DNA of 64,000 nucleotides from Acytostelium subglobosum LB1. Taxonomy: Eukaryota; Evosea; Eumycetozoa; Acytosteliales; Acytosteliaceae. The stretch is from contig NW_012236516.1 in the NCBI RefSeq assembly GCF_000787575.1, forward strand, positions 220,921 through 284,920, in the 5' to 3' direction. Both the position numbers and the translations under genes were made by a program. Shown here piece after piece: positions 13,286-42,569 of this stretch (the first letter of the stretch is position 1; the number at the start of each line of letters is the position of its first letter). Below the pieces are notes generated by a model. That model searched no databases and was not told where the DNA came from. It worked only from the letters and a program-made list of their open reading frames with translations.

Positions 13286-14716
13286 TCAATAGTCCTCATC
13301 GTCCACATCCTCATTCAAATCTTCCTCCTCTTGGTCGTCTTCGTCGTCATCCTGTTCGTCTTCCACTTCTTCTTCCTCCATCTCTTCGTCCTCTTCGTCG
13401 TCTTCTTCATCGTCTTCGTCATCTTGTTCGTCGTCCTCATCGTCCTCTTCGTCGAGAAGGAATTCTAAAAGTCTTCTTTGGATTTTATATAGATCCACGG
13501 TGAAGAAGGCTGGAAAGACTTGGGGTAGAGGAGTTCCATTGAACAGTTCACCAGTCGGTATCTGGAGTTGGTAAAGTGGAATATTATAATCATTGCAAGG
13601 ATTCAACAGATTGAGAGGATTGGGAAGGTCTAAGTTGACAGGAGGTTCTGGGGGCATCACTCCTTCATAGCCATATGGGGCGGCGTATCCTGCTGGTGAT
13701 ATAGATCTGACTATTGGGATAGCGTTGGATCGATTCAAATGGTTTGTACCGCAAGAGATGATCCTGACAGGATTGGCAGCAGCACTATTCTGATAGTATA
13801 AGACTAACATTGCAAAGTTGTCATTGTATAGTGGATAGATCTTGACACCAATCACAATTCTGATAGTGCTGGGCACTGCTGCCTTGGCCTCCACCCCAGG
13901 CACTCCAGGAGCTGCAGGGACAGCCTCTACTGCAGCAACACGATCCATGAAATAGGCCATGCACTTCTGATGTAAGACTGGAAGGGACTGAGTATACGCA
14001 GTTTCGATGATCAATGAAGGATATGGAAGTCCTTTACCATTTGAGGAGCGTGTTCGAGGGACTCTTGGTCGTAGTGGTCGCAAACAATGGTCAGGTTCTG
14101 CTGAGGAATGACCATGTTGAAGAATAAGAGTAGGGCTCCCAGCCATTATAATCTCTTGATGGTGATGGACGGCTTGATCCCTAATAATAAGAGCAAGTTG
14201 AAGGGAGCAGAATTCATGTACATCGCTTAGTATTTCATAGATCCATGCTCTTCCTTCTATGAACCATATCTTAGACTTGAATTCTGATGATACTCCTTCC
14301 TTTTGTCTTCTTTCAACAAAAGATTGGAATGTTATTGATCCAAGTTCCACGCCCCCGTCTGGAACATATCCAATCTTGAGTTAAATAGGTTAGTTTCGAC
14401 TATCTTGTACTTGAAGAAAGAATATTAATATTCTTACCTCTCTCAAATAATCAATCTTGTTTGACCATCCTTTGATTCGATTGACAATATCAATAATATT
14501 ATTTGTGTGGGGTATGTTGGAGGAACTGGAAGTTGATAAATTCATTAATGAGGTTGTAGAAGATGTTGAAGATGTTGAAGATGTTGAAGATGTTGAAGAA
14601 CTTGAAGATGAAGTGGAATTGATGATATTTTGTTTCTTTGTTATGGTTATTCCTTGCGTTCTCTGGATGAAGATTGAATTAGTAGATGTATCTTCAAAAC
14701 CAATAGTATCTGCCAT
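13286..14716 (-). CDS. Acidic-tailed protein with possible PD-(D/E)XK nuclease-like core
   Basis: Two exons (14716-14438 and 14374-13286, phase 0) give 455 aa. The N-terminus (1-75) is Ser/Thr-rich. The middle contains PYPSLIIETAYTQSLPVLHQ (about 205) and, some 50 residues on, STIRIVIGVKIYP (about 264). This spacing (Ile-Glu, then a beta strand ending in Lys) recalls Uma2/PD-(D/E)XK-like domains found in mobile-element and effector proteins of fungi and protists, but I cannot confirm the fold. Residues 375-455 are almost entirely Asp/Glu. A degenerate paralogue lies at 29828-30978. No function should be assumed. Confidence 0.7.
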
Positions 14717-17309: not shown

Positions 17310-18000
17310 TACTACTATTAAAGATTGATATATAACTATTTAGTTCCTATGAAGTTGAATGAGATAATTATTGAGATTGAATGAATGAATGAATGAATGA
17401 GTGAATGAATGATGGATTGATTGAAGCACTTCACACCATGATGATCATGAAGATGGTGTGTGAGTGAACGATGCTTGACAACCACACCACACCAACCCAC
17501 CATGTCAATGCATTGGTAGTTCGTCCTTGAATGATTGATTGATCGTTCAATTACATTGGTGGTGTGATGTTCAATGTGTATGTTGTTGAATTACTTGGGC
17601 TTGTCTTGTCAACCACTTAGTCAATGTGTTTTTCATAATGGTCAGGACCTTATCATCCGAACAATGGAATGAATGAATGACTGACCGAGTTCAATGGCCG
17701 TGAGTGTGTAGATAGATGATATAATCAGGAGCAGTGTTGATCTTGTCTAAGTCAGTGGAAGATGATCGAAAGCCAGTCGGTCACCAAACCAATGAAGATG
17801 AAGATAACTATAGTTGATCTTGCCATACTAGTTGATTGATTGGTCTATTCACGACTCTGTGGGTCATCGCATCAATTGATGATCATTTGGGTGGAAGGGT
17901 CATTGTCATATGCAATGCAAACTGAATATATTATAAGTACTGATGGCTGTTGTACGAATGAATGAAAGTAACATTGAGGTTGTCTTAACACATAAACAAG
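17310..18000. other. Spacer upstream of transketolase, edge of the duplicated block
   Basis: It has (GAAT)n/(GATT)n repeats near 17379-17415 and no gene. From about 17930 on, the sequence starts to resemble DNA preceding the two other array copies (near 23060 and 28770). Confidence 0.45.
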
Positions 18001-18002
18001 GT

Positions 18003-18440
18003 GAAGTTCAGTGTTGGTGGGGGTGAAATTTGAATTTGAAATTAGCGCCCATTCGAATCGAAATAACGGTTGAGTTCAAAATGGTTGTTGGTTAGATGTG
18101 GTCCACATGTCACTACTCATCTCATTGGCATTGCACTCACTCTCTCCTACTTGTACACATACACATATACTCATACATATACAAATACATCAATAATAAT
18201 AAACAACACATTGACATGTATAACTCACCACCACGTTGTTCTGCCTTGTTGTCTCACTACTGCTGATGAGTTACATGAGTTTGAGTTATGATATCAATCA
18301 ATGAGTGAGTACAAATAGATTTCTAATTGAATCACCATCTTCTGCTTACTTATACTTTCCTCTTCTTTTCTTCTCTCTTCTCTTCTGCCTTCTCCTTGAC
18401 CTTGTGCCTTGAAGCCCGCTGTGTGTGGTCCTTGCCCAAG
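18003..18440 (+). promoter_or_regulatory. Conserved leader of hairpin array 1
   Basis: A block containing TTTGAATTTGAAATTAGCGCC, TTCGAATCGAAATAACGGTTGAG and GATGTGGTCCACATGTCAC is almost identical at 23219-23310 (leader of array 2) and recognisable at 28951-29010 (array 3). It is followed in copies 1 and 2 by matching text through TTGACATGTAT..CTCACCA and by a pyrimidine-rich tract. Conservation of the same block ahead of all three arrays suggests a promoter or 5' end for plus-strand transcripts; this is inference. Confidence 0.4.
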
Positions 18441-19715
18441 TCTGAGTCACCTTACCTCTGTCTCCAACTAGATAGACGTCCGCCACGCCACCACGTTGAC
18501 CACAGCCATGAACCTCTGTCTCCATCTGTACAGACGTCCGCCATGCCACCACGTTGTCCACAGCCCTGAGCCTCTGTTTCCAACTTGACTGAGGTGGCCA
18601 TGCTTCCTTGAGTTCCCAGTACGTCTGTCTCCCTAATCAATGAGTGAGTACTACCACCGATCACAATCTGCTCACTTATACTCTGCTTACTTACACCTTT
18701 CCTTCTTCTCTCCTCTACTCTCTACCTTCTCCTTGACCTTGTGCCTTGAAGCCAGCTGTGTGGTACCTGTCCAAGTCTGAGTCCATTCCACCTTACCGAA
18801 CCCCTCCAGCTAGACAGACGGCTCCATTGTGACTCTGCCATGCCGACCACAGTCCAGAACCTCTGCTTCCAACTTGACAGACGACTGCCGGCGTGCTGCC
18901 ACGTTGACCACAGCCACGAACCTCTGTCTCCATCTGTACAGTCGTCCGCCATGCTGCCAAGTTGTCCAGAACCTCTGTCTCCAGCTAGACTGAAGTTGCA
19001 ATGCTGCGCCGAGTACATGAACCTCTGTCCCCAACTAGACGGACTCCGCTGACCACCCATGTTGACCGCCAAGTTGCCAAGTTGTCCATCTCGAGTTGAC
19101 CACAGCCCAGAATCTCTGTCTCCAACAAGACAGACGGCCGCCATTGTGACTCGACCATTCTGACCTCCATGCTACCAAGCTGTCCACAGCCCCGAACCTC
19201 TGTCTCTATCTATACAGACGGCTGCCATAGTGACTCCGCCATGCTGACCAACGCCAGGCCAAGCTGTCCACAGCCCAGAACCTCTGTCTCCCACTAGATC
19301 ACCGCCATGCTGCCAAGGTGTCCACAGCCATGAACCTCTGTCTCCAACTAGAGAGACCTGACTCGGCCACGCTGATCGCCCATGCTGACCACCGCCACGT
19401 TACCAAGTTGTCCACAACCCAGAACCTCAAGTTGGCCACAGCCCAGAACCTCTGTCTCCAACTGCCACGTTGACACGCCTCCATGCTGCCAAGATGGCCA
19501 CCGTCGACAACCTCCGACTCCAACCAGACAGACAGCAACGATGACAAGTGCGCCGCCATCCTGCCAAGTTGTCCATCTCTAGCTGACCACAGTCCAGAAC
19601 CTATGTCTCCAACTGGACAGACGCCAAGCTGACAACCGCACTGCTATGTTGCAATCATTGACCGCAGCCATCCTGCTAGGTTGACGAGTGTATCCAACTG
19701 GAATGATCATAATCA
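18441..19715 (+). repeat. GC-rich tandem array of hairpin-forming repeats, copy 1
   Basis: About 16 imperfect units of roughly 55-60 bp. Each has a core like CCTCTGTCTCCAACTAGACA followed by GACGGCCGCCATGCTGCCAA and a GTTGACCACAGCC-type segment. Within most units CTGTCT and AGACAG (or TCTGT and ACAGA in the CCATCTGTACAGAC variant) form an inverted repeat around a CCAACT-like loop. The array has an internal duplication: the GCCTTCTCCTTGACCTTGTG leader recurs near 18388 and 18727. Stops occur in all plus frames; some minus frames stay open for up to 140 codons but show no starts or splice sites that persuade me. It is most likely non-coding. Confidence 0.65.
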
Positions 19716-20310
19716 AAGCATTAATAAACGATGAAGTCAGGAGTTGTGCAAGTGTGACTTGGAAGGAGAATAAAAACAATTGGAAAAGTACAACTCAATG
19801 ATGTCGCCTGGGCACGGTTGCTGCCCAACGGCTTTAAAAAAAATAAAGGCAGCACTTGTGACAATGAGAAGAAACTCTCAAAGTCAACAAAGTTGCTGCC
19901 ATACCTGTCTCGACGCTGCCCAAAGTCTAATAGCGACAGGTGTAGTCCCCAGGCCGTGCCCACCCCTCTTACATGGTGGGCCCACCCGTCCCTCTTGCAT
20001 GACAGGCCGACCCATCCCTCTTGCATGATGGGCCACGGCCACCTCCTTGCGGAGATGGCCAAATGGTGATGGGAGGAAATGTTAGTAGTATTCGGTCCTG
20101 GAAAGGTCCACCTCAGCTTGGCCTGGCTTGGCTCGGCGGCATGGCACACGGTCTGGCACGGCACTGGCACGGCACTGGATGACTTGGAGGGAATAGACCT
20201 CGCAACGACAGGTCATCGTGTGAATGAATCACAACGTCTCCACTGTGTCATCTGGGTTCGGGTGATGGATGTAGGACCACTGATTGGTGCGTTGGTAACT
20301 CGACTTTGAT
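19716..20310 (+). repeat. Conserved 3' block of duplicated unit 1
   Basis: It begins with AATAAACGATGAA (a polyadenylation-like signal) and runs through ATGTCGCCTGGGCACGGTTG, an A-rich tract flanked by GCTGCC/GGCAGC, three 26-bp repeats of the (T/C)CTTGCATGA(T/C)(A/G)GGCC type near 19968-20035, and GTCATCGTGTGAATGAATCA. The matching block at 25188-25770 is very close to identical over most of its length. No gene is recognised. Confidence 0.55.
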
Positions 20311-20433
20311 GATGTTGTTGTTGTTGTTGTTGATGTTGGTGGTTGATTGGTTTCAATCGCCAGCCGAGAGATATTTGGGTTATACCCATCACTCATCTGC
20401 TTGATCGACGGCAAGATATATCGATGTGAATTA

Positions 20434-21170
20434 CTATTTGTTGAAAAGGAGAGGGACCGGAGGAGATAGGACAGGCTCATCCACCTCATAATCTGGTGAT
20501 GGTGGATATTGGTATCTGAGTTGTTGGTGGTGGCCAATGTCTTCTTGGGTGACTGGATGACTAGATGGTAATGTTGGATATAGTTGGTCTCCAGGTCTCG
20601 GTCCGAGGTCGGAAGGTTGTTGATTGATTTCATTGTCTTGGATGAAAAAGACATGGACGAGGATGGTTAGTACTTGGTTTGACAGCAGACAGACAGACAT
20701 CACTCAATCAATGAATGAATGAGTTCATTTGAGGTAAACATACGATTTGGTCCCATTTGATTTGGGGTGGATACTGGTTGCCTTCTGGGGTAGACAGGCA
20801 ACGATCGTAATATCCTGAGACAGATACAGTGAATGAGTTGGACATTACTATTCTCCTGGTTGAGAGGAGCGTATGGGACAGTATTCGCAATGACAAATGC
20901 GACATCAAGAGGAACCCTGCGTGAGAACCCGACTCCATCTTGATCCTTTCCAAATAAAATCTTTGGTCGCCTGTTGTCGAACAGTGGTCTGATTGGTTTG
21001 ACGTATGGGAGTATGAGAAGTGTCGCGCCAATGTCAATGAAGACCTTGAACTTCCGGATGATTGTGCCTTTTTTGGTGGCCAGAAGCAAGGTCTTGGGGA
21101 CTGTCGGGTCAAACAACAGTCTAAGGGGCTTGGCTGGTGGGTAGAGTGATTGAATATAATTAAATTGCAT
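20434..21170 (-). CDS. Unknown 209-aa protein, paralogue 1
   Basis: Two exons (21170-20744 and 20636-20434) give exactly 209 aa, the same as the paralogue at 25889-26619, with the intron at the same place and phase. The N-terminal exon has an internal repeat of the form R(L/P)LFD...PK.LL (residues about 16-32 and 62-76). The second exon is Pro-rich and ends YQYPPSPDYEVDEPVLSPPV. No signal peptide, membrane helix or known domain is visible. The two paralogues share only about a quarter to a third of residues in exon 1 but are nearly identical at the C-terminal end and in much of the flanking DNA. Function unknown. Confidence 0.7.
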
Positions 21171-21199
21171 TGTAATAATAATAATAAATCGAGTTGAAG

Positions 21200-21560
21200 A
21201 AGGCGTAGTAGTGTTGGAAAACACTGTTTAAAGTGATATTATTGTTATGTAGATAATAGTTTTGGAATAGCCGAAGTAGAGAGTCTATAAATAATAATAA
21301 TTATAAATATTAGATTGATATTATTGATTGAGGGAGAACCAATGTTAGTATTCTGAATTAGAATGATGATAGTATGATAATAACTTAGTAATAATGTTAT
21401 ATAAGTGTACATACATGTAATTGAGTGATATGGTAATGAGTGATGTCAATGCCCACTTGTCCAAGGACATTCACAGCAATGAGAGTGTCTGTGAGTGGGT
21501 GAGTAGTGACACCCTCACACACACACACACACTAACACATATAAACACACATTTTGAATT
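21200..21560 (-). promoter_or_regulatory. Conserved upstream region of 209-aa paralogue 1
   Basis: The stretch GTTGGAAAACACTGTT, then GAATAGCCGAAGTA.AGAGTCTAT and GTCAATGCCCACTTGTCCAA reappears at 26646-26940 upstream of the second paralogue, nearly unchanged apart from AT-rich indels. It ends in a (CA)n tract near 21520. Confidence 0.45.
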
Positions 21561-21576
21561 AAATATTTAAATATAT

Positions 21577-21786
21577 TTAATTAACAGATTGACCATTTAA
21601 CGGTCCATTTGAATTTGTATCACTCAATACCATCTCAGTGTCATCATCAATGAAGTTCACGTTGATGAGCCTTGATTGAGGCACGATTGTTCCAACTGGA
21701 TACTCACAGTATTCTGATGAATGAATGAATGAGCTTTGTTGTAAGAGACTGCTCTGATGTCCATTGTGATCTTGATGAGCTTGCAT
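21577..21786 (-). CDS. Possible small ORF ending in a block identical between duplicated units
   Basis: An ATG-initiated frame (21786 to 21577) encodes 69 aa: MQAHQDHNGHQS..., ending LINVNFIDDDTEMVLSDTNS and NGPLNGQSVN. Roughly the last 100 bp are identical at 27057-27160. In the second unit the same ATG exists (27300) but a changed number of GAAT repeats and a 32-bp insertion put it out of frame with the conserved end, so either copy 2 is broken or the conserved segment is the last exon of a longer spliced gene. Unknown family. Confidence 0.35.
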   Translation of the reverse strand: MQAHQDHNGHQSSLLQQSSFIHSSEYCEYPVGTIVPQSRLINVNFIDDDTEMVLSDTNSNGPLNGQSVN

Positions 21787-21819
21787 GTTATCGGTGTTCT
21801 GTCTGTTTGTCTGTCTCAA

Positions 21820-23000
21820 TGTCTCTAGCTGTCTGTCTGACTGTTTATGTATGTTTGATTAATCGATTGAATGAGGTCAGAGCATCCAATATGGGCTGAG
21901 GGTTGATCCTATGTTCTATTTTGCTGGGACAGACTACTGGTTGAATGACTGACTGACTGGGTGGGTGTTGTATGAATGGTGATACATGTCGCTTGATTGG
22001 AGTTCGCCAGGTTTTGTCTTGATGTGTTTGCCTGTAATCGATGTTGACCTAGCGTCTTGTTCATCAATCCCAACTGGCGATGGAGAACTAATGTGCTCGA
22101 CCTTGATGTGACCGATCTGACTGACTGACTGGCCATTCCAGCTCCCACACCTATTGGACGAGGTTCGATCCAATGTTGTTAACGCGCTGCGTGAAACAAT
22201 GTTGATGGACTGGTACCTGCTCGCAAGATTGTCTCTCTCACTGGCGCCATGTTGACTAAATGTGTTTGCCTTTGTGATGTGATACATGGTGCCTTTCCCG
22301 ATTGATGTCTAGCCATTGTCCTCACTGATGTTGGTGGACTTCGTCACCAATGCTGTCTAATCATACAAAATGTTGCACAATCCTAAAGCTTTGAGGATTC
22401 ATTGATGGTGATGCGACTCTCGACTAACGATCTATGAGTGACCATCATCGAGTGGCAGTCAAACGAAGTTTGGCCACCCAATACCACGTTTGGATGTTGC
22501 TGTGTTCTTTGGGGATCTCTTGCCCTTCAACTCTATTTAGAAAGTCTGCCACGCGCCAGGTTAGTCATCAATGAAACTCAATCAATTGAATGTTTAATAT
22601 ATACATACACTTCGTTTCTCTCGACAGTCCTTTGTTTGGTCTTCTGGTCGTTGGATCTTGAATTGAGGTCGATGTAGCAATTACTTGTCCACTTTCATCA
22701 ATCTCTGAGTGTTGTCTTTGGGACGTTGCTGAAGCATTCCCCATGAAGAATTATGACTCCTGGAGAGGCGTCTATACCTGAAGTCAAGTGCTTGCCATGC
22801 TGCGTGTATCTTAGTCGAGACTCGTGACCGAGAAAGATGATCAATTAATTGGTGATCCAGGCTTTTGGGAGTGATAGTTAGAGAACCAGAACCGGGCGGA
22901 CCGACTGTCCTCAGCATCACAGACAGGACTGTTAATAGCATTGGCTCCTGCATCAAGTAGCACACGTTAGATTGAAGTCAAGCAGAGTTGACTTGATTGG
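21820..23000. other. Duplicated non-coding part of unit 1
   Basis: It includes a (TGAC)n tract near 21940-21960 and 22110-22130, a GAGGATTCATTGATGGTGATG block (22392) that recurs at 28188, and CATGCTGCGTGTATC (22797), which recurs at 28443. No reading frame is preserved between the two units, so I regard it as non-coding or decayed. Confidence 0.45.
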
Positions 23001-23189
23001 ATGAGTGGTGTCCATGTCCACTTGCCAATCTTAATTGATTGGTCGAGTCATGACGAGAAGACATATAATAGGTACTGATGTATGAATGAATGAAGTGTTG
23101 TGAAGGATACAATGAACACAAATAAATATCTTGGGAATGTTCCCCAACTGTTTTGGTTGACCAGAAGTCACAACAACACCTATTGACCA

Positions 23190-23640
23190 ATAAAACAAAG
23201 TGAAGTTCAATGTGGGTGTAAATTTGAATTTGAAATTAGCGCCCTTTCGAATCGAAATAACGGTTGAGTACAAAATGGTCGTTGGTTCGATGTGGTCCAC
23301 ATGTCACTCGGACTCTGGGTCACCACTCATCTCATTGGCATTGTACTCACTCTCTCCTACTTGTACACATATACATACATATATATATACATACTTATGC
23401 TTTTACTCATACTAATATATCAATAATAAACAACACATTGACATGTATCACTCACCACGTTGTTATGCCTTGTTGTCTCACTACTGCTGATGAGTTACTA
23501 ATGAGTTTGAGTTATGATATCAATCAATGAGTGAGTACTAAATGACTTCTAATTTCATCACCATCTGCTGCTTACTTCAACTATCCTCTTCTTCTCTTCT
23601 CTCTTCTCCTCTGCCTTCTCCTTGACCTTGTGCCTTGAAG
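23190..23640 (+). promoter_or_regulatory. Conserved leader of hairpin array 2
   Basis: Same block as at 18003-18440 (AATTTGAAATTAGCGCCC, AATAACGGTTGAGTACAAAA, GATGTGGTCCACATGTCAC), with small indels. It is followed by the same TATATATACATAC stretch, TTGCCTTGTTGTCTCACTAC text and pyrimidine tract. Confidence 0.4.
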
Positions 23641-25187
23641 CCCGCTGTGTGGTCCTTGTCAAAGTCAGTGTTCACCATCTGTATCTCAATCACGTCCGCC
23701 GTGCAGCCATATTGCAATGAATCTCTGTCTCCATCTTGATAGACTGCCGTCGTACTTCCACGTTGACCATGAACCTTTGTCACCATCTTGACAGACGTCC
23801 GCCGTGCTGCCACAGCCATGTTGACCACAGCCCAGAACCTCTGTCTCCAACTAGATTGACAGACGCCATGTGTCTAGAGCCTCTGCCTCAAACTTGACTG
23901 CCGCCGTGCTGTTGACCACAGCCATGAACCACTGCCGCTGATGCCCAGAGTGTACCTCTGCCAACAAGCTGCCTGACCACCGCCGCCATGCTGTCTGACC
24001 ACTTCCCCTAACCTCTGCCGCCATGCTGTCTGATCACTGCCGCCATGTTGCCTGAGTTGACAACTGCTGCCTGAGTCCATGAACCTGTGTCTCCAACTAG
24101 ACAGACGACCGCCATGCTGCCACGTTGACCAACGCCATTATGACTCGGCCATGCTGACCACGACCTGTCCACAGCCCAGAACCTCTGTCTCCAACGAAAC
24201 AGACGGCCGGACTCCACCATGCTGCCTTGAGTGACCTTAGCCCTGAACCTCTGTCCCTCAATGAGTGAGTACTACTACACCAATGATCGCACAGCTGCTC
24301 ACCTATACTCTTCTTACTTACACCATTCTCTTCTCCCTTCTCTTCTGTCTTCCCTTGTGCCTTGAAGACCTCTGGGTAGTCCTTGTCCAAGTTAGTGTCT
24401 CCAACTAGACAGACGGCCGCCTTTGTGACTCGGCCATGCTGACCACCGCCATGCTACCAAGTTGTCCACACCCCCGAACCTCTGTCTCCATCTAGAATGA
24501 GGTCGCCATGAGCCCTGACTGACCACAGCCCAGAACCTCTGTCTACATCTAGACAGCCCCATTGTGACTCTGCCATTCTGACACCGCCATGCTGCTAGGT
24601 TGTCCAATGCCAAGCTGTCCACAGCCCAGAACCTCCGTCTCCAACTTGACTGACTGCCGACGTGCTCCCACGTTGACCACAGCCACGAACCTCTATCTCC
24701 ATCTGTACAGTCGTCCACCATGTTGCCAAGTTGTCCAGAACCTCTGTCTCTGCTAGACTGAAGATGTCCTGAATGACCACGGCCTCCCATTCTGCACCGA
24801 GTCAACCTCTGTGGTCCGTCGCCGTGTTGCCAGCCACGTTGATCACAGCCATGAACCAATGTCTCCAACTTGACTGACTGCCAGGCGTGCTCCCACGTTG
24901 ACCACAGCCCTGAACCTCTGACTCCAACTAGACTGCCACAATGCTGCCACTTTGACCCGCCTCCATGTCAACAAGATGGGCCATCGTTGACCACCTCTGA
25001 CTCCAACCAGACAGACAGCCGCGATGAGAAGTGCGCCGCCATGCTGCCAAGTTGTCCATCTCGAGTTGACCACAGTCCAGAACATCTGTCTCCAACTGGA
25101 CAGACGCCACGCTGACAAGCGCACCGCCATGTTGCCATCAGATCATTGACAGACCACAGCCATCCTGCCAAGTTGACGAGTGTTTCC
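23641..25187 (+). repeat. GC-rich tandem array of hairpin-forming repeats, copy 2
   Basis: About 17 imperfect units of the same 55-60 bp family as array 1, again in two sub-arrays: the leader CCTTGTGCCTTGAAG recurs near 23624 and 24352. Units such as CCTCTGTCTCCAACTAGACA keep the CTGTCT/AGACAG arms. Order and spacing of the variants differ from array 1, so the arrays have been reshuffled since duplication. A minus-strand frame is open for 158 codons (24868-24392), but only through lack of stops in GC-rich repeats. Confidence 0.65.
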
Positions 25188-25780
25188 AAAGTATTAATAA
25201 ACGATGAAAACAGGAGTTGTACAAGTGTGACTTGGAAGGAGAATAACAACAATTGGCAAAGTACAACTCAATGATGTCGCCTGGGCACGGTTGCTGCCCT
25301 TGGCTTGAAAAAAAAAAAAGGCAGCACTTGTGACAATGAGAAGAAACTCTCAAAGTCCAAAGTTGCTGCCATACCTGTCTCGACGTGCCTAAAGTCTAAT
25401 AGCGACAGGTGTAGACCCCAGGCCGTGCCCACCCCTCTTACATGATGGGCCCACCCGTCCCTCTTGCATGACAGGCCGACCCATCCCTCTTGCATGATGG
25501 GCCACGGCCACCTCCTTGCGGAGATGGCCAAATGGTGATGGGAGGAAAATGTTAGTAGTATTCGGTCCTGGAAAGGTCCACCTCGGCTTGGCCTGGCTTG
25601 GCTCGGCGGTATGGCACTCGGTCTGGCACGGCACTGGCACGGCACTGAATGACTTGGAGGGAATAGACCTCGCAACGACAGGTCATCGTGTGAATGAATC
25701 ACAACGTCTCCACTGTGTCATCTGGGTTCGGGTGATGGATGTAGGACCACTGATTGGTGCGTTGGTAATCGAATATGTTG
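25188..25780 (+). repeat. Conserved 3' block of duplicated unit 2
   Basis: Copy of 19716-20310: AATAAACGATGAA, ATGTCGCCTGGGCACGGTTG, an A-run, three 26-bp CTTGCATGA-type repeats, and GGTCATCGTGTGAATGAATC. Differences are few and scattered. Confidence 0.55.
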
Positions 25781-25888
25781 TTGTTGTTGGTTGTTGGTGG
25801 TTGATTGGTTTCAATCGCGAGCCGAGAGATATTTGGGTTTTACCCATCACTCATCTGCTTGATCGACGGCAAAATATATAGAGGTGAA

Positions 25889-26619
25889 TTACTGTTTGTT
25901 GAAAAGGTGAGGGACCGGAGGAGAGAATACAGGCTCATCCACCTCATAATCTGGTGATGGTGGGTATTGGTATCTGATTCCTAGGTGGTGTTGGCCTGGG
26001 TCTGCTTGGACGGCTGGATGATTGAATGGTTTAGGTGGTTGTGGCATCATCACTTGGTCTCCAGGTATTGGTCCGAGGTCATGTGGCTGTTGTTGGATGC
26101 CAATGTCTTTGAGTGACATGGATGAGAAGCATCAAAGGTGATAATTGAATGGATGGTTAGTATTATTTTTTGACAGTAGCATGCAAGTTCATTTGATATA
26201 TACTTACCATTTGGAATTGGTTCCTGTTGACCATTGGGATGATCTGGCAACTGGTTGATCTCTGGTAAGTTTGTCCTCCCAATGAATAGAGTTTGATGGA
26301 TCTCATTGTGTGGTGTATATGTTATCCTAATGGGATCATGGACTCCATCAGTGCGCACAAGAAGGGTGTAAATCACCTTTTTAGAAGATTCCTCGCCCAA
26401 TAACAATGTCCTTGGTCGACTATCGAATAAACTTAGAATTGGGTACATTTTGATGACTGCTGTTTTTTTGTCAAAGTCTATCCTTATTAGGGTGATGACC
26501 CTGTGATTTAAGTCGGCCAGCAACAAGTTCTTGGGTATGTGCCTGTTGAACAAAGGTCGAATGAGTTTGGCTGGATTGTATATATATTGATTATTATTAT
26601 TATTATTATTATTATTCAT
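25889..26619 (-). CDS. Unknown 209-aa protein, paralogue 2
   Basis: Two exons (26619-26208 and 26106-25889) give 209 aa, the same length, intron position and phase as paralogue 1. The N-terminus has a poly-Asn run made by an (ATT)n microsatellite. IRPLFNRHIPKNLLLA and ILSLFDSRPRTLLLG form the internal repeat. The C-terminus ends YQYPPSPDYEVDEPVFSPPV. Both copies keep complete open frames and intact splice sites despite strong divergence, which argues that both make protein. Function unknown. Confidence 0.7.
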
Positions 26620-26639
26620 TATTGATTGATTGATTGATT

Positions 26640-26985
26640 GGTAGCGTTGGAAAACACTGTTGAGAAAGATATTATTGTATTGCAGATAATGGTTTGGGAA
26701 TAGCCGAAGTAAAGAGTCTATGATATTAATGATATTGATATTATAGATTGAAATTGATTGATTGATTGATGAATAGTTGGTGAATCAATGTTAGTATAAT
26801 GAAATAGAATGATGATAGAATTATAATAACATAGTAATAATGTTATATAAGTGTACATACATGTAGTAGAGTGATAAGGTAATGAATGATGTCAATGCCC
26901 ACTTGTCCAAGGACATTCACCGCAATGAGAGAGTCTGTGAGTGGATAGAGACACTCCCGCACACTCACACACTCATACACACACA

Positions 26986-27020
<35 letters not shown>

Positions 27021-27060
27021 ACCTAAAGACACATTTTGAATAAAATATTTAAATATTTAA
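26640..27060 (-). promoter_or_regulatory. Conserved upstream region of 209-aa paralogue 2
   Basis: Counterpart of 21200-21560 (GTTGGAAAACACTGTT, GAATAGCCGAAGTAAAGAGT, GTCAATGCCCACTTGTCCAA). It ends in a longer (CA)n microsatellite at about 26985-27015. Confidence 0.45.
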
Positions 27061-27225
27061 TTAACAGATTGACCATTTAACGGTCCATTTGAATTTGTAT
27101 CACTCAATACCATCTCAGTGTCATCATCAATGAAGTTCACGTTGATGAGCCTTGATTGAGGCAGTGATAGTTGATGACCTTGATTGAGGCTTAGTGAGCC
27201 CAACGATCGTTCCAACTTGAATACT
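27057..27225 (-). pseudogene. Second copy of the conserved small-ORF end
   Basis: The segment matching 21577-21680 is unchanged, but a 32-bp internal duplication (a second GCCTCAATCAAGG(C/T)) and altered GAAT repeats break the frame from the shared ATG at 27300. It could instead be an alternative exon of a spliced gene. Confidence 0.35.
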
Positions 27226-27300
27226 CTGATGAATGAATGAATGAATGAGTCTTGTTGTGACTCTGCTCTGGTGTCCATTGTGATCTTGATGAGCTTGCAT

Positions 27301-28930
27301 GTGATCAGGTAGTGTAGTGGGCCGTGACGATTGAATGAGTGTATCGCTTCAACCTCAATTGGATGTGTTGCTCTATCTTGCTGTGAATGACTGGTTGTTT
27401 GACTGATTGACTGACTGCCTGGATGAGTGTTGGTTCAATGGTCACTGCTGATGCAGGTCATTATAAGATGAGTTCAAGGTAGATTGATTGTCCAGGTAAT
27501 CGATTGAGTGTGTATTGTTGTAGAAACTGCATTGAATGGCTCCTTGCTGAAGGTGTTGCATCAATCAGACACCATCATCGAGATGTGATGGCTCCAATAA
27601 CGGTGATCATTGAGTCGAGCATGGTGATCGAGTGAGTTGGAGATAATGACATCTTCTGTCCAGGTTGTTCTCAGTATCGTCGATTGGGACTCGTGCACCG
27701 GTATGATGCTGCTCCAGCGGCTCTGCGGTGTGTCTGAGATATAGCCGGACTGCCGCTGCAATTGGGTGCAATGAGGATGAATGTGCTTGATCTTGCTGTG
27801 AATGCACAACTAAGCGTTGATTCATTTCTGCCATGGGATTATCTCATTAGCGATGGCGTCCTCACCATCTTGATGTTGGTGGGCGGTCTCGTTTCCAAGA
27901 TGAGCCGAGGTGGTTCTCGATGTTCCTGACTGACTGACTGACTGAGTGAGTGTTCGTTGGGGATGCATGTCCATTCCACAAGTTGAGCTCCATGTCCACC
28001 TATTGATCAAGTCTGGTCCAATGTCGTTAAGGCTGTGTGAAATAGTGATTTCCCATTTGATGTCTCGCAATTGTTATCTACACAATTCCTGATGCTTGCA
28101 AATGACTGGACATGGAAGTTGGTGGACTCCTCCTCTCCGTCGCCACTGCTGTCAAATCGGACAATGTTGTTCAGTCCTTAAGCCCTAAGGATTCATTGAT
28201 AGTGATGGACTCTCGACCAACGAGCTGTCTGTCTGTAGATATGAATGACACAGAGCGACCATACCATCCCACTCGATCCAACTAGTTGACCACTGTGACC
28301 TGCCGTTACGACGTTTGGACGTTGCTGTTCATGGGGATGTGGCAGCCTTCTTGCCCTCAACTCTCACCTCCTGAGGTGCACTCAGACCGTCGATGAGCTA
28401 GCCCTGTATTGTGGAAGACCTCCTCGGTGATGGACCTCGGCAGGCTGCGTGTATCATGGTAGAGACTGGTAGTAACCGAGATTGTAACTGGATCCAGAGG
28501 CCAGAGAACCGTCTGGTCGGTCCGATCACAGGCAAGATGGGCTTGGGGCTATGTCGACATAATCAAGCGCCCGGGCTCCTCCTGCATCAAAGAAGAACGA
28601 GATCAGACAGCACAGACCAGAATAGCAGACTTGATTAGTTGAGCGGTAACATCTGTCATCATGACATAGATGGATGGGATGGCCTTCTGGGATACAATCC
28701 AATTCGGTCATGTCATTGTTTGGGTAACCATTGTATTACATTACACATAAATGCAATTGAATGTTTGATTATATATATTATAAAGGCTGGTGTCGTTGTA
28801 AGAATGAATGAATGAATAAATGAAAGCATGACAGTTGAGTTTGGATTCAATAAATCATCATAATATCTTGTGTTACCCATTGAATGAACTTCCTTTCATA
28901 ATTATCATTTGAACTTCATAAGCTTGTGTA
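27301..28930. other. Duplicated non-coding part of unit 2
   Basis: Counterpart of 21820-23000, more diverged, with (TGAC)n near 27930-27950. Short frames on both strands are not shared with unit 1. No gene recognised. Confidence 0.4.
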
Positions 28931-28939
28931 AGTTGGTGT

Positions 28940-29700
28940 CAGTTATTGGGATTTGAATTTGAAATTTTCGAATGGTAACGGCTGGGTTTCAAAATCCGTC
29001 AATGATGGTTGGTTGTATGGGGAGTGTAATACTCATTGTTCGACATAGACAGCTATAAATACCACTAACTTTTGTCATTGACTCCTTCATTCTTATCTCT
29101 CTTACTTCTACTTGTACTTACTTATACACTTATACACATATACAAACATGTCTTGAACCTTTGTTACCTTGAAGACCCGGACCGAACCTCTGTCTACTCT
29201 AGTCTGTCGCCGCAGTGCTGCACCGCCATGCTGTCTGACCTCTGCCGCCGTGCTGTTGGCCCTCCTTTTTGACCCTCTTTGTTGCCATTCATGCCGACAA
29301 CGCCGCTGTGCTGACTCTGCCGCAATGTTCACCTCTGCTGCCGTGCTGCTGACCTCTGCTGCCGTGCTCTGTCGCCGTGTTGATGACCTCTGCTGCCGTC
29401 CTCTCTCGCCGTGTTGACCCTGCCAGGTGCAGTCATGCTGCTTGACCTCTGTCACCTTGATGTCTATAATCTCTGCCGCAATGCTGACCACCGCCATGCT
29501 TCCAAGATGGCGGCCGCCAAGAACCTCTGACTCAGACCAGATGTCGACGCTAACCGACCACTATCACCAACTAGTCAGAAGTCCGCCATGCTGCCACGTT
29601 GTCCATCTCGAGTTGACCAGCCCAGAACCTCTGTCTCCAACAAGGCAGACAGGTGCCATTCTGCCAAGTTGACATGAGTATCCAACTGGTAATAATCGAA
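28940..29700 (+). repeat. Truncated third leader plus hairpin array 3
   Basis: The leader (GATTTGAATTTGAAATTTTCGAATGGTAACGG split by small indels) is followed by a shorter, more diverged array at about 29150-29690. That array has few complete CCTCTGTCTCCAAC units and is enriched instead in CTCTGCCGC(C/A)(G/A)TGCTG units. It ends in the same GTATCCAACTGGTAATAATC and AATAAACGATGAA text as arrays 1 and 2. There is no 209-aa gene behind it. Confidence 0.55.
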
Positions 29701-29827: not shown

Positions 29828-30978
29828 CTAGACATCATCGTCCTCTTCCACTTCATCTACGTAGTCCTCGTCGTATTCTTTCTAAACCTCCTCTTCCACA
29901 ATGACTTGGTTTTCCTCTACTTTTGGTTGGTGGATTTATCGTTCTGCTTTTTGTTGGATTGAATACAGATCGACGGAGAAGAATGCGGGAAACGTTGGAG
30001 GTAGAGGATCTACACCATTGAAAAATTCAGCTGTTGGGATCTGGAGTTGGTAAAGAGGAATAAGATGATGATTACAAGGACTATGCAGATTCAGAGGATT
30101 TAAATGATCTATGATGGCTGGAGGGGAACCATCTTGAGGCATTACTCCTTCATAGCCATGTGGGGCCTAACCATCTGGTGATATCTGACGGACTCTTGGG
30201 ATAGTATTGATGGGATCCAAATATGTTGTTCCACAAGAGATGATCCTTATTGGATTGGCAGCAGCACCATTCCGATAGTATAAAACAATCATTCCAAAGT
30301 AACCGTTATGTCTCGGATAGATCTTGATACCAATGACTATTCTGATGGTGCTTGGCACAGCTTCAACTGCAGGAACCCCTGCAGATACAGCAGCGACACG
30401 ATCAATGAAGTAAGCCAAGCACTTCTGATTCAACATTGGAAGTGACTGTGACTTGGCAGTTTCAATCACCAATGTAGGATATGGAGTTCCACTGCCGTCT
30501 TACGAATGTAAAAGATTGACATTCGGTCGTCCCGGGTCTAAACTTTGTTCAGGTTCTGCACAAGTATGATTTTGAAGAATCAGGGTTGGAGATCCTGCAG
30601 TGTCCAACAATTGATGATGTTGAACCGCCTCATCTCTAATAAGGTTAACAAATAGTTCGGCACAGCGCTCATGTTCCACAGAATTCACTTCATAGATCAT
30701 TGCTTTTCCTTCTTCAAACCATATTCTTGAGCCTTCCCCATCCTTCAGTCTTCTTGAAAGATAAGACTCAAATCCTATTGATCCTAGAACAACACCTCCC
30801 TCTGGAACATAACCAATCTAATTTATAATCACTTGTTAGTATCCACTTTTGATTTATGTGTATCAATTCATATCTTTACCTCTTTCAAATAATATATCTT
30901 GTTAGACCATCCTTTGATTCCATTGACATTTTCAATAGCATTCTGAGGTTTAGAGGATGTGGATAAATTCATTGATGT
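29828..30978 (-). pseudogene. Degenerate copy of the acidic-tailed PD-(D/E)XK-like protein
   Basis: Paralogue of the gene at 13286-14716, aligned over the same two exons (split at 30880/30817, donor GTAAAG). The N-terminal Ser/Thr-rich part is missing. The frame is kept without frameshift but carries four in-frame stops: TAA at 30500-30502, TAG at 30167-30169, TAA at 29936-29938 and TAG at 29882-29884. The core is well conserved (YPTLVIETAKSQSLPMLNQK and STIRIVIGIKIYP). The acidic tail is still visible past the third stop. It is most simply a recent pseudogene. Confidence 0.75.
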
Positions 30979-31213
30979 CGAAGTTGAAGATGAAGATGTA
31001 AAGTGTAATGAGATACGATATAATATCAATGTTGGTCCAATAAACAAATAAACAAGAGACAGGAACAACAAACAGAGTGCTTTGTTTACATTGGTCGTTG
31101 TGGTTAACTAAAAAGGAAAAGATGGTGAAACGACACAAACCCATCATCACTATCGAGTTTGAATAATACTCAACGAGAGTCTCGCACTGGAGAGAGATAC
31201 ATACAACCAAGAT

Positions 31214-34888: not shown

Positions 34889-37800
34889 TTAATCAGTGGT
34901 GAAGAACCAGTCGTAGGAGACACACTCGGCGGGAAGTGGCTCATTGAACGCTCTGGTCGTGCTGTCCTGGTTGTAACGGACCTTGACCTCGGGGATGAGG
35001 TCGCATACGGCGCCGAGAGCATCCCAGAGTTGCTCGCTAAGGTCGGTCTTGCCCTCCCAGTTCGCCTGCTCGTGGTTGACGTGGATGATAAAGACATCGG
35101 GCTGCACGATGAACTTGAAACCCATGACGGCCATCGTGAAGACGTGCGAGTTCTTGTCAAAGCCGTAGCCCTTGAAGCGCTCGTCAAACAGCTCCACCAT
35201 CTTGCGATCAAACAACAAGTATGGCTCGTAGTTCCACCTGTACTCGGCCAGGTACACGCTCTCGGCGGCATACCATTTGGCATAGTCAGTTGGTCCATGG
35301 CACCTGGGGCACACATCCAGGTCTGTTAATGGATGGATGTATGTGTTAGTCATTCAATCAATCAATCAATCATGTTTGGATCTGCGCAGAAACACTTACT
35401 TGATGGTGTGATCAAACCCTCGTTGATGAGGTAGAGCAGGTCGTTCTTGTTGTTTGGCATGTTTTGGGGCTCGAGCCATGAGGAGAAGGAAGGAAAGACA
35501 AAGGCCACACGGTCTTGGAGGGTCTGGGCGGCATGGACGTAGGGCACAAGGTAGTCGTACGATCCGGATGGGATGATAAAGTCAGCATCCATCACCAGGA
35601 CAAAGTCTGTGCGCGAGTTAATGATGGCAAGGTTACGCAAGTTGTTGACTGGGTACCGAGTCTTGTTGGCGTGCAGCAAATGGATGTCGGCAAACTTGGT
35701 CAGCGAAGGGTGGGCAGCCATGATCTTCTTGAGCTGGGGAAGCTCGGCCTCAAAGTCCTTGACATAGATTGCTACGGAGAGGGGTGCCAACCAGCGGTCG
35801 GCCATCCAGGCAATACGCTCCAGACGGTCAATGGTGGTCTGAGTGATGATGGTGATGTTGAACTGATCGGATGTCGTGAGCTCGGTGGCCATGTGGAAGA
35901 AGGGTTGGGTGTTGAAGGTTGCGGTGAGGCCGTCGAGGAACTCTTGGTTGGGCTTAACGAGGCGCTCCCTGCGATTAACGTCCTCCTGGTAGTCGTAGTT
36001 GATGTTGATACGGCTGCTGCTGAGCTGGCGGCCAGACTGGAGCTTTCCGGGGAAGGGGCTGGGCTCGATGGTGACCTGGTGGTCAGGGTTCCATGGTTGC
36101 CATGTTGGTCTGTAGGATGGTGTCGTTGATGGTTGGACCGATGGATTGACAGAGGGATTGACAGATGGATTGATCGATGGATTGACTGAGGGATTGACTG
36201 ACGGTCTGATCGATGGATTGACTGAAGGATTGACCGATGGGTTGATCGATGGATTGACTGAGGGATTGACCGATGGATTGATCGATGGGTTAACAGATGG
36301 ATTGACCGATGGTCTGATCGATGGATTGACGGAGGGATTGATTGATGGATTGACAGATGGATTGACTGAGGGATTGACCGATGGTCTGACCGATGGACTA
36401 ACGGAGGGATTGACAGAGGGGTTGTTCGATGGATTGATTGATGGATTCACTGATGGATTGACGGAGGGATTGATCGATGGATTGACTGATGGTCTGATTG
36501 AGGGATTGACAGATGGATTGACCGATGGATTGACTGATGGTCTGATTGAGGGATTGACAGAAGGATTGACAGATGGATTCACAGATGGTCTGATCGAAGG
36601 ATTGACAGAGGGATTGACAGAGGGATTGACNGATGGTCTGATNGANGGATTNACAGATGGATTGACCGANNNNNNNNNNNNNNNNNNNNNNNNNNNNNNN
36701 NNNNNNNNNNNNNNNNNNNNNNNNNNNNNNNNNNNNNNNNNNNNNNNNNNNNNNNNNNNNNNNNNNNNNGATGATTGACNGATGGTCTAATAGATGGATT
36801 CACAGATGGGTTTACCGATGGTCTGATCGAAGGATTCACCGATGGATTGACTGATGGATTGACTGAAGGATTGACCGATGGATTGACCGATGGATTGACT
36901 GATGGTCTGATTGAGGGATTGACAGATGGATTGACCGATGGATTGACTGATGGTCTAATAGATGGATTCACCGATGGATTGACCGATGGTCTGATCGATG
37001 GATTGACAGAGGGATTGACTGATGGATTGACTGATGGTCTGATTGAGGGATTGACGGAAGGATTGACAGATGGTCTAATCGAAGGATTGACAGATGGATT
37101 GACTGATGGTCTGATAGAGGGGTTCACAGATGGATTGACCGATGGTCTGATCGATGGATTGACGGAGGGATTCACCGATGGTCTGATTGAGGGATTGACG
37201 GAGGGATTCACCGATGGTCTGACCGAGGGATTCACCGATGGATTGACCGATGGTCTGATCGAAGGATTGACAGAGGGATTGACTGATGGTCTGATCGATG
37301 GATTGACTGATGGTCTGATGGAGGGATTCACCGAAGGTCTGGTCGATGGATTGACAGAGGGATTCACCGAAGGATTGACAGATGGATTGACGGATGGTCT
37401 GATAGATGGATTCACCGATGGATTGACTGATGGTCTGACCGATGGATTGACAGATGGTCTGACCGATGGATTGACAGAGGGATTGACGGATGGTCTGGTC
37501 GAGGGATTCACCGAGGGATTAACCGATGGATTGACTGATGGATTGATCGATGGATTAACTGATGGATTGACAGAAGGTCTGGTCGATGGATTGACTGATG
37601 GATTCACTGATGGATTCACTGATGGATTCACTGATGGGTTCACTGATGGATTGACTGATGGATTGACTGATGGGGAGTAATAATATTCAACGTCCTCTTC
37701 TTGGACAGGAATAGTGGGCTCCTCGACATTGACATGATCAAACACAATTGCATCGGACTGGACTGGTTCCCAATAGAATGAAGATGGATCACTCCTCAGA

Positions 37801-39163: not shown

Positions 39164-42100
39164 TTAGCTTCTGACGACCATTTTGTCCAACTCTCTGGAG
39201 ATCTCTGCCTTGTAGTCCATAAAGTCTCCGTCGTACTTGGTGACGGTGCCATTCTTCTTGACGACCCAGATCTCGTTGGCGACCAGGTTGATCAGATGCT
39301 GGTTGTGAGAGATGAGGACGACGCCACCCTCAAACTCGTTGATGCCCTCGGCCAGCGCCTCAATGGCGTCGATGTCCAAATGGTTGGTTGGCTCGTCCAG
39401 CAGCAAGATGTGTGGCGCGGCCCACGCCAGCTCGGCGAGAATGACACGCGACTTTTGGCCTCCCGACAGCGTGGTGATCTTGTGCAGGGGCAGGTTGTTA
39501 CAGATACCAAAGCGACCCAGATGGTTGCGGATGTTCTGGATGGGTGGGTTGCTGAACTTGGTCTGGAAGTACTCAATGGGCGTCTGATCAGTGTTGAGCT
39601 GGTCGACAAAGTGCTGCGAGAAACGAGCCACACGGCACTTTCTGCTGCGCTCGATGTAGCCCTCGGTCTCTGACAGCTCGCCAGCCAGCAGCTTGATGAG
39701 GGTGGACTTGCCCACACCGTTCATTCCGACCAGGGCGATCTTGTTGTCCATGTCGACACCAATCTCCAGGTTCTTGAACATGACGGGACGGCCTGGGTAG
39801 CCAAACGACACGTTGTGGAAACGCAACAGGGGAGGCGTCAGTCTGCTCTCGGGCTCGGGGAAGCTGACCACCAGCGACTTGTCATCGACGTCCACCTTGA
39901 CCAGCTCGACCTTCTCGAGCTTCTTCTTGCGCTGTGCTGCCATCTTGGCGTTTGTGTTGGTCTTGTTGGCGTTGATAAAGTCCTTCTCCTTCTTCATCTT
40001 GCGCTGCTGCTTCTCGAGCTTGTTGAGCGTGGTCTTTTGTGCCACGTCGCGCTGCTTGACAAAGTCGTCGTAGTTGCCACGGTATTGGTCGAGACGCTGA
40101 TCGTGGATGTGGATAATATTGTCGACGACCTCATTCAGGAAGGTGGCTTCGTGAGACACGACCAACAGGGTCCTGTCCCATGAGAACAGGTACTTCTCGA
40201 GCCACACGCATGCGTGCAGATCCAAATGGTTAGAAGGCTCATCGAGCAACAGCACCTCTGGCTTACAGAACAGTGCTCTAGCCAGTGCAATTCTCATTCT
40301 CCAACCTCCAGAGTAGTCCTTCGATGGTTTAGTAGAGATCTCCTCCAATGTGAATCCAAGACCAACCAAGATTGATGATGCTCTGTTTGATTGATGTGGT
40401 TAGTATGATCGCGAATGAATGGTTGTCCGTCACAACAACAACAACATACCTTGCTTGTGCCTTGTCTGAATCAATCTCCTTCAGACGCTCGTAGATGTCA
40501 CGAAGGTTGTAGTTTCTCTTCTCGCGTGGATCGTACTGCCATGATGGGTTCTCATTGTCCAGACGATTGAGCTCCTTCTCCTCAGCCATGAGCCATGTGC
40601 GCTCCTCATCGGCATTCAACACACAGGTCAGTGGTGTGTTGTCATCACCGACGACCTCCTGCTCGACGTAGAGCACACGCAGATGTGGCGCGATGGTGAT
40701 CTCGTCACGCATGGCGATCTTCTTGACAAGAGTGGACTTGCCAATACCGTTCCTGCCAACGAAACCATACTTCTGGCCGTAGGCCAGCGTCAGGTTGGCG
40801 CCTTGCAGCAGAATCCTGCCTGGAACAGACATGGTGAGGTTGTCGATCTTGATGTCGTTTCCGATCTGGCTGCGCAGGCCAGCACTGGTGCGCAAATGGA
40901 CAAAGTCGGGTGGGTTGCGGCCCTCGATGTCGTCAATATCCACGTTGTCATAGTCAATCTCGACGGCGTTCTTCTTCTTGAGCTCCTCGAACTGGTCCTC
41001 CTCCTCAGCGTCACGCTTCTTCTTTGCCTTCACCTTCTTGGCTTCCAGCTTGGCCGCCTTCTTTGCTGCCTTGGCCGCCTTGATCTCTGCCAGTGTCATT
41101 TGCTTTGGAGTCTCTTCCTCCTCGTCTTCATTCTCCTCCTCCTCCTCAGGCTCTTCCTCGGGCTCCTCTTCTTCCTCCTCCTCGACATGCTTGGACTTGC
41201 CCTTGCCCTTCTTTCCTTTAACTGAGAGGTTGGACATCTTCTTGGTGACTTCCTCTTCCTCATCCTCCTCGTCATCGTCGTGAGCGTGCTTGCTGCCCTT
41301 CTTCTTGTCCTTCTTGGAGACCTTCATGACTGGCTGCGGGATCTCCTCCTCATCTTCGACCTCATCCTCATCTTCCTCTTGGGCATGCTTGCTGCCCTTC
41401 TTCTTGTCCTTCTTGGAGGTCTTCTTGACTGGTTGTGGGATATCCTCGACCTCCTCCTCCTCTTCCTCCTCCTCGACGTGCTTGGCAGCAGCACCCTTTT
41501 TCTTGTCCTTCTTGCCACCCTTCTTGGCGGGCTGTGGAATGTCCTCGACCTCCTCCTCCTCGTCGTCCTCCTCGATGTGCTTTCCACCCTTCTTCTTGTC
41601 GCTCTTGCCGCCCTTCTTGACTGGCTGTGGGATGTCCTCGACCTCCTCTTCATCTTCGTCGTCATCCACATGCTTTCCACCCTTCTTCTTGTCCTTCTTG
41701 GCGGCGCCTCCCTTCTTGACTGGCTGTGGGATGTCCTCTACCTCCTCCTCTTCGTCATCATCATCGATCTGTTGCTTGCCACCCTTCTTCTTGTCCTTCT
41801 TGGCGGCGCCTCCCTTCTTGACTGGTTGTGGGATGTCCTCTACCTCCTCTTCCTCCTCATCTGACTCGACATGCTTGCCGCCCTTCTTCTTGTCCTTCTT
41901 GGCAGCGCCTCCCTTCTTGACTGGTTTTGGGATATCCTCGACGTCGTCCTCATCATCATCATCGACCTGTTGTTTACCTGCGCCGCCCTTCTTCTTGTCG
42001 TTCTTGGCTGCGCCGCCCTTCTTGACTGGCTGTGGGATGTCCTCGACGTCGTCCTCGTCTGACTCGATATGCTTGCCACCCTTCTTCTTGTCATTCTTGC

Positions 42101-42569
42101 CACCTTTCTTGACTGGCTGTGGGAGGTCCTCGACGTCGTCCTCATCAGACTCGGCATGCTTGGCACCGCCCTTCTTCTTGTCATTCTTGCCACCCTTCTT
42201 TGCTGGCTGTGGGATGTTGTCCTCGATATCATCATCGTCGTCATGCTGCTGCTTTCCACCCTTCTTCTTATCATTCTTGCCACCCTTCTTTGCTGGTTGT
42301 GGCAGGGCTATCTCTTCGACGGCATCATCATCATCGTCGTGTTGTTGCTGCTTGCCACCTTTCTTCTTATTATTTTGTACTGGTGCTGGTGCAGCTACAG
42401 GCTTCTTTTCCAGCTCTTCATCACTGTCATCACCTCTATTCTTCTTTCCTCCCTTCTTCTGTGGCTGTTGCTTTGCTTGCTTCTTATCTGGTTGTGGGAT
42501 GTTATCGACAATGTCATCATCGTCATCAAACTGTTGACCCTTTCCCTTTTTCTTATCTTTAGGTGCCAT
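39164..42569 (-). CDS. abcF4: ABC-F family ATPase with long repetitive charged N-terminus
   Basis: Two exons (42569-40450 and 40382-39164) give 1112 aa. Residues 1-400 are about a dozen units of the form KKGGKxDKKKGGKHxESDEDDVEDIPQPV, alternating strongly basic and strongly acidic; a Lys/Glu-rich stretch follows to about 540. Two soluble ABC domains come next. The first has GRNGIGKST (about 600), the signature DYSGGWRMR, and LLLDEPSNHLD. The second has GMNGVGKST (about 925), TLSGGQKSR, and LLLDEPTNHLD. There is no membrane segment. ABC-F proteins act on the ribosome; ABCF1-type members with charged N-termini associate with eIF2 and translation initiation. The symbol follows the long-N-terminus Dictyostelium member and is tentative. 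Confidence 0.92.

Follow-up and report, generated by a model that had tools for sequence, protein, structure and literature searches.

In concerted evolution by gene conversion, flanking sequences stay similar across loci and paralogs, sharp edges appear where a cassette has diverged too far, and patches are swapped between copies. The yeast mating-type idiomorph cassettes likewise hold two unlike coding cassettes within common flanks at several loci. Here we analyse two neighbouring genes, A and B, that have unlike first exons within similar flanks, in a 64,000-nucleotide (nt) stretch of the social amoeba Acytostelium subglobosum LB1 (contig NW_012236516.1, positions 220,921 to 284,920 of the forward strand; hereafter the window, whose first letter is position 1). 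The locus resembles concerted evolution in all of the above features, and differs in that two fixed cassettes recur here at many loci and that part of the homogenised flank is a selected RNA. It differs from the yeast cassettes in that both types adjoin at several loci.

The RNA, which is encoded downstream of both genes, also has described counterparts. CsrB/RsmZ-type RNAs similarly carry several hairpins in a row that have one loop in common, which suggests that proteins dock repeatedly, whereas the present RNA is eukaryotic and lies past a coding gene. According to excerpts of their description (PMC7919456), the Dictyostelid Class I RNAs are multicopy structured RNAs of social amoebae, preceded by a Dictyostelium upstream sequence element (DUSE) about 60 nt upstream. 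The RNA described here is likewise multicopy and structured, but it is longer, has multiple hairpins, adjoins open reading frames (ORFs) and has no convincing match in Rfam. With moderate confidence, we favour the reading that A and B belong to a small dispersed orphan gene family with a common promoter and leader and a 3′ structured RNA, in which the cassettes are old and the flanks have been exchanged. The family and its RNA appear to be new, and no description of the A/B unit was found in the open-licence literature, while the kind of arrangement, exchanged flanks with a conserved RNA resembling an untranslated region (UTR), is already known.

Two recurring types of exon 1

Gene A (20434-21170) and gene B (25889-26619) both lie on the minus strand and encode 209 amino acids (aa) each. 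Both have a single phase-1 intron, and the gene models of a preliminary description of the locus are thereby confirmed. Exon 1 of A, the type A cassette (20744-21170; 142 codons plus one base), is followed by an intron with a GTATGT donor, a TACTAAC motif and a CAAG acceptor (20637-20743), and by exon 2 (20434-20636, stop at 20434), in which the divergence from B fades toward the stop codon. In gene B, the type B cassette forms exon 1 (26208-26619), the intron (26107-26207) has a GTAAGT donor and a TACTAAC motif, and exon 2 occupies 25889-26106, with the stop at 25889.

Between the two window copies, identity is 199/400 (49.7%) in exon 1 DNA and 51/101 (50.5%) in the intron, 67/72 (93.1%) in the last codons, 562/581 (96.7%) in the downstream block and 284/348 (81.6%) on the promoter side. 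The preliminary description had put the flanks and the C-terminal codons at 85-98%, which holds for the downstream block and the last codons, while the promoter side falls slightly lower. It had also given the exon-1 proteins about a quarter to a third of their residues in common, and we find 41/121 (34%), or 28% in another alignment. With a mean synonymous distance (dS) of 1.47 and a mean nonsynonymous distance (dN) of 0.63 over 63 pairs, A and B are, as judged from these distances, ancient paralogs. Both exons of each gene were searched against Pfam without a match, no relative was found in IMG/VR, the NCBIfam matches all lie far below the cut-off, and there is no match in the PDB. An AlphaFold2 model of the first exon of B, in alignment with that of A, failed, with a mean predicted local distance difference test score (pLDDT) of 36, and therefore no fold search was made.

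How variable is exon 1 across the genome? We searched the assembly of 30.73 Mb in 56 contigs; the published genome has 30.9 Mb, 55% A+T and 18 chromosomes (PMC4334915, in excerpt). Exon 1 of A gave nine near-full matches including the window copy, plus three partial ones; seven of the eight other near-full copies are 96-99% identical to window A, and the copy on contig C50 is 84% identical. Exon 1 of B has eight copies including that of the window, one of them with an internal stop, and all seven others are 96-100% identical to window B. Altogether, 14 of the 15 near-complete copies outside the window are 96-100% identical to the window copy of their own type. The unit alignment comprises 17 units (9 A, 8 B), and the three partial A copies (the first on C56, the one on C54 and the second on C43) were left out of it and of the dN/dS, profile and per-site analyses. 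Across these 17 units, the DNA of intron plus exon 1 is 36-55% identical between types and 94-99% within types. The difference between A and B is, at the level of these alignments, one between two types that recur across sites, and not a variable cassette. Separately, a decayed unit at C43:748.5-749.8 kb (L026) has an exon 1 only 50% identical to A over 110 aa, and is perhaps a fourth type or a pseudogene.

Within types, eight A copies (A_C50 left out) have 14 synonymous and 17 nonsynonymous changes, giving a dN/dS of 0.38 (p=0.007), and seven B copies (B_C43b, which has the internal stop, left out) have 8 and 10 such changes, giving 0.34 (p=0.024). Pairwise means yield 0.34 for A and 0.21 for B. 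As measured by these substitution counts, each exon-1 type is shown to be kept by purifying selection. The preliminary description had proposed diversifying selection, or a variable cassette, as in allorecognition or effector loci. A hypervariable exon 1 of this kind would fit what is seen at first sight, similar flanks around a coding exon that has diverged, and the A copy on C50 and the decayed C43 unit are more diverged than the others. However, the near-complete copies fall into just two conserved types, neither type reaches the exon-1 dN/dS of at least 1 that would mark a hypervariable locus, and dS between A and B is near saturation, a combination that the preliminary description itself had set against its proposal. 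Nothing was found that points toward allorecognition or effector functions; for the copies of this single genome the explanation is refuted, and we consider it highly improbable. As a caution, coding sequence that is more diverged than its flanks need not signal diversifying selection.

A structured RNA downstream of both genes

What had been described as non-coding flank is in part a constrained structured RNA, which was overlooked there. The element of about 259 nt lies on the genes’ strand, 350-580 nt past the stop codon, at 19808-20066 (minus strand) downstream of A and at 25278-25535 (minus strand) downstream of B. It comprises a hairpin, H0, capped by the GNRA loop GCAA; three tandem hairpins, H1-H3, with the identical loop AUGYAAGAGG; a further hairpin, H4; the 53-nt hairpin H5; a closing stem; and a run of eight Ts, a T-run being conserved 3′ of H5. 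A coding function of the downstream block was considered, and single-base indels argue against it.

The per-site divergence was computed over 8 A and 6 B rows (B_C1 and B_C55 left out). In the RNA block it amounts to 0.008 differences per site among A copies, 0.015 among B copies and 0.010 between types, as compared to 0.08-0.10 in the adjoining tract and to 0.044 (8 A) and 0.035 (7 B) at synonymous sites of exon 1. Among the eight A copies and between types, no other part of the core evolves as slowly as the RNA block. In addition, the minus-strand RNA folds more stably than its dinucleotide shuffles, with a z of -5.3 for A and of -3.8 for the distant type C described below.

Base pairing was followed in an alignment of 16 rows, namely type C and 15 of the 17 complete unit copies, the A copies on C21 and C41 being split between fetched stretches and thus excluded. 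Forty-six of the 47 pairs are standard in all 16 rows, the remaining one being broken in C, and three of the 46 have changed on both sides. Among 500 shuffle controls, none scored as high for both-sided changes and for the covariation score, and 38 did so for further pair types; slid versions of the structure pair in 39-47% of cells, as compared to 99.8%. Moreover, 51 of the 752 cells are G-U on the minus strand; on the plus strand they would turn into A-C mismatches. Because of these G-U cells and the GCAA loop of H0, we assign the RNA to the strand of the genes. As far as pairing across copies can tell, these data show that the fold is under selection on that strand.

An exact search of the genome with the three-loop signature gives 54 matches, which fall in threes at 18 places and belong without exception to the A/B/C family. 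With one mismatch, 11 further scattered matches arise, as compared to 10 for a reversed control pattern. A search pattern made of two adjacent loops and the distance between them, which as a control finds both window copies (4 matches) and type C, has no exact match in IMG/VR or in prokaryote genomes, and the best Rfam match of the element has an E of 1.1. The element is a candidate for a new family of structured RNAs, found in a social amoeba. Elsewhere in the window, outside the RNA block, CA/TG-rich sequences at 21467-21652 and 26925-27106 (minus strand) match SCARNA7 of Rfam weakly (31.9 and 30.4 bits against a gathering threshold of 65; E 0.0002 and 0.0005), probably by chance.

Is the RNA itself the main product? 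It could be a multicopy non-coding RNA gene in its own right, or the precursor of a microRNA, and the ORFs would then be mere neighbours: conservation among the A copies and between types is highest in the RNA, the conserved T-run after H5 resembles that behind a gene of RNA polymerase III, and H5 has the form of a 53-nt hairpin. A possible lead is asu-mir-1204, for which a survey of miRNAs in Amoebozoa reports eight A. subglobosum paralogs that have the same duplex (PMC11014262). Against this possibility, type C has kept not only the RNA but also promoter, leader and ORF, and a DUSE-like motif of the consensus form [A/T]CCCA[C/T]AA is absent from the genes’ strand of the A and B units. We therefore regard an independent RNA gene as unlikely, and continue to favour a gene family with a 3′ RNA.

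Probable exchange of flanks between units

Why do the flanks look young around such old cassettes? In a pairwise profile across the unit (8 A and 8 B copies, A_C50 left out), same-type pairs are 90-99% alike in a core from about 19470 to 21690. Outside the core, the share that can be aligned is at most 0.73, and in most bins less than 0.5, with 79-95% identity in what does align. The core includes a conserved block beyond the promoter (21560-21690, no strand assigned), at which the two window units are identical in 118 of 131 positions. As in concerted evolution, flank identity between types is about equal to that within types, and patches are swapped.

We scanned 19716-20640 and 21171-21480 for type-diagnostic positions under a 75% rule, keeping B_C1 and B_C55, whose gaps make the rule harder for B. 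The scan yielded 70 such positions, none of which lies in 19716-20303; they start at 20304, become dense from 20520 and are sparser beyond 21300. The swapped patches consist of two B states near the stop in A_C50, three consecutive A states in exon 2 of B_C21, and A states at 20304 and 20309 in B_C1 and B_C55, and single swapped states occur in a few other rows. Because 19716-20303 has no diagnostic site and because of these patches, the data fit an exchange of flank sequence between units. Consistently, the preliminary description was right that neutral drift after one simple duplication is insufficient for the pattern. Its suggestion of exchange homogenising the flanks agrees with what is found around the two cassettes, while the variable cassette that it placed between them does not.

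Functional constraint alone, acting without exchange, might also keep the flanks alike, as the RNA and the leader are constrained and persist in type C. However, the stretch 20070-20303 lies outside the RNA and is variable, at about 0.027 per site across 20070-20310, yet lacks type-diagnostic sites, and constraint would leave the A-type patches in B_C21 and B_C1/B_C55 and the B-type patches in A_C50 unaccounted for. We thus hold constraint without exchange to be quite improbable.

Type C and the dispersed family

The genome search gave a sole distant relative, type C, at C55:965.3-966.9 kb (stretch L033). Its RNA block is 84% identical over 257 aligned columns, and pieces of promoter and leader match at 71-76%. 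In the window, the common promoter and 5′ leader of A lie at 21171-21480 (minus strand), with pieces 72-76% identical in the single-copy type C, and the same region of B lies at 26620-26935 (minus strand), of which 26729-26921 matches C at 71%. The A leader contains a putative 5′ intron (GTATGT ... TACTAAC ... TATAG), recognised from motifs only, which is among the stretches conserved in an alignment of the leaders of A, B and C. Between leader and RNA, type C has an ORF that counts 125 codons from the ATG; the encoded protein occurs once in the genome and has only sub-threshold Pfam matches (best E 0.054). Since this protein has no significant match to A or B, the kinship of C rests on the leader, the position and the RNA. 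Non-coding sequence here outlives protein, the RNA fold being readable in C, whose protein no longer aligns. As for the sequence upstream of the promoter, a coding gene was considered there (an ORF ending near 21580) and set aside, the frames of the common stretches differing by eye between the A and B units.

The favoured reading proposes the following history. A and B would be ancient paralogous proteins encoded on tandem units whose multiplication took them to ten further contigs, with C as a lone third member of the same layout. The coding cassettes would be too old and too different to recombine, the flanks would be kept alike by exchange, and the RNA part of the flank would additionally be held alike by selection on its fold. 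The functions that we infer for the A, B and C proteins and the RNA are drawn from these sequence comparisons. The RNA may be part of the A, B and C transcripts, as a 3′ UTR control or 3′-end element, and its three identical hairpin loops may each offer a docking site to an RNA-binding protein, by which the family would be co-regulated. In the simplest reading, the common promoter, leader and 3′ RNA would place A, B and C under one regulatory programme.

Several observations weigh against this reading. First, the proteins: the C protein matches A and B only non-significantly (E 0.10 and 0.16), and the inclusion of the C50 copy raises the dN/dS of A to 0.50 (9 copies; 29 synonymous and 47 nonsynonymous changes; p 0.003). 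Second, the RNA: the B copies differ from one another no more in the whole of exon 1 (0.0143) than in the RNA (0.0147). The C copy alone contributes the three both-sided pair changes, and the three hairpins were delineated by eye with the sequences already in view, which tilts the pair counts in their favour. The minimum-energy fold, in both A and C, favours a nested rod over separate H1-H3. The rod was nevertheless rejected, since two of its pairs fail, 39-104 being unpaired in 1 of 16 rows and 52-91 in 6 of 16; four of the seven outer pairs written for it were out of register, and these four are uninformative. Third, the roughly 2.5 kb that follow the stop codons of A and B contain no AATAAA, which is awkward for an ordinary mRNA end; therefore, the RNA could act in 3′-end formation. 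Finally, the flank trees do not reject a single B clade (p 0.75 on the left with 17 rows, 0.26 on the right with 19 rows; the left tree without B_C1 and B_C55, in which a contig end or deletion falls in the block, and both trees without the second C43 copy). A single exchange shortly before the units spread would therefore also suffice, and these trees fit both continuing exchange and a recent common origin of the flanks.

A bolder version would make the unit a selfish or domesticated ribonucleoprotein module, in which A and B bind the triple-hairpin RNA downstream and spread with it as a unit. The RNA and the proteins would then control each other’s expression across about 17 copies, and A and B would be partner proteins of an RNA encoded downstream of their own genes. 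We rate this as a distinctly speculative idea.

The family occurs on ten contigs besides that of the window (C21, C55, C53, C56, C41, C43, C23, C50, C54 and the small C1). A and B each lie within a tandem unit of about 5 kb, and on C40, C21, C53, C41 and C50 the A and B units are arranged in tandem at a spacing of 5-7 kb. In the window, unit 1 (17983-23190, outer edges approximate) consists of a degenerate GC-rich repeat tract, the RNA block, gene A and a spacer, and unit 2 (23190-29405, right edge ragged) of a tract, the RNA block, gene B and a spacer. Could the unit be a mobile element or an integrated nuclear plasmid, with A, B and the RNA as its parts? Its dispersal in tandem units would agree with this, as would the varied unit order, B preceding A on C55, and the near absence of common sequence outside the arrays among the fetched stretches. 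Against it, the tested unit ORFs (the A and B exons and three further ORFs) gave no Pfam match, and thus no transposase, polymerase, integrase or reverse transcriptase. The inverted repeats are short internal matches, mostly A+T-rich, with no convincing terminal ones, and the array ends are ragged. The units are not retrocopies, because their introns are kept. Moreover, the single-copy C adjoins an ORF with a leishmanolysin (Peptidase_M8) domain, which by its domain looks like an ordinary host gene. A mobile origin thus seems unlikely to us, and a dispersed gene family remains our preferred reading. In excerpts of its description, the published genome is called static and not rich in transposons (PMC4334915).

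An arrangement of one array per chromosome, as for centromere-like placement, was considered and is unsupported: ten clusters fall on ten contigs, with a chance of 0.21 under length-weighted random placement, the 11-kb contig C1 being excluded. The GC-rich degenerate repeat tracts past each RNA block (18400-19700 and 23700-25150) evolve fast between copies, and repeat units of 58 and 84 bp were called in the first. A gene near the window units carries a GlfB_C domain, which we take to be typical of dictyostelids. A duplicated segment (13478-14575 and 29954-30999; 68.5% over 1116 columns) flanks a transketolase gene and the A/B units, and an ORF of 286 aa that has no match in Pfam overlaps its first copy. 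Farther along the window, 36106-37673 holds coding tandem repeats of a PSVNPS-type repeat protein, and 41142-42374 encodes a repeated N-terminus rich in K, E and D in an ORF that by eye resembles an ABCF ATPase.

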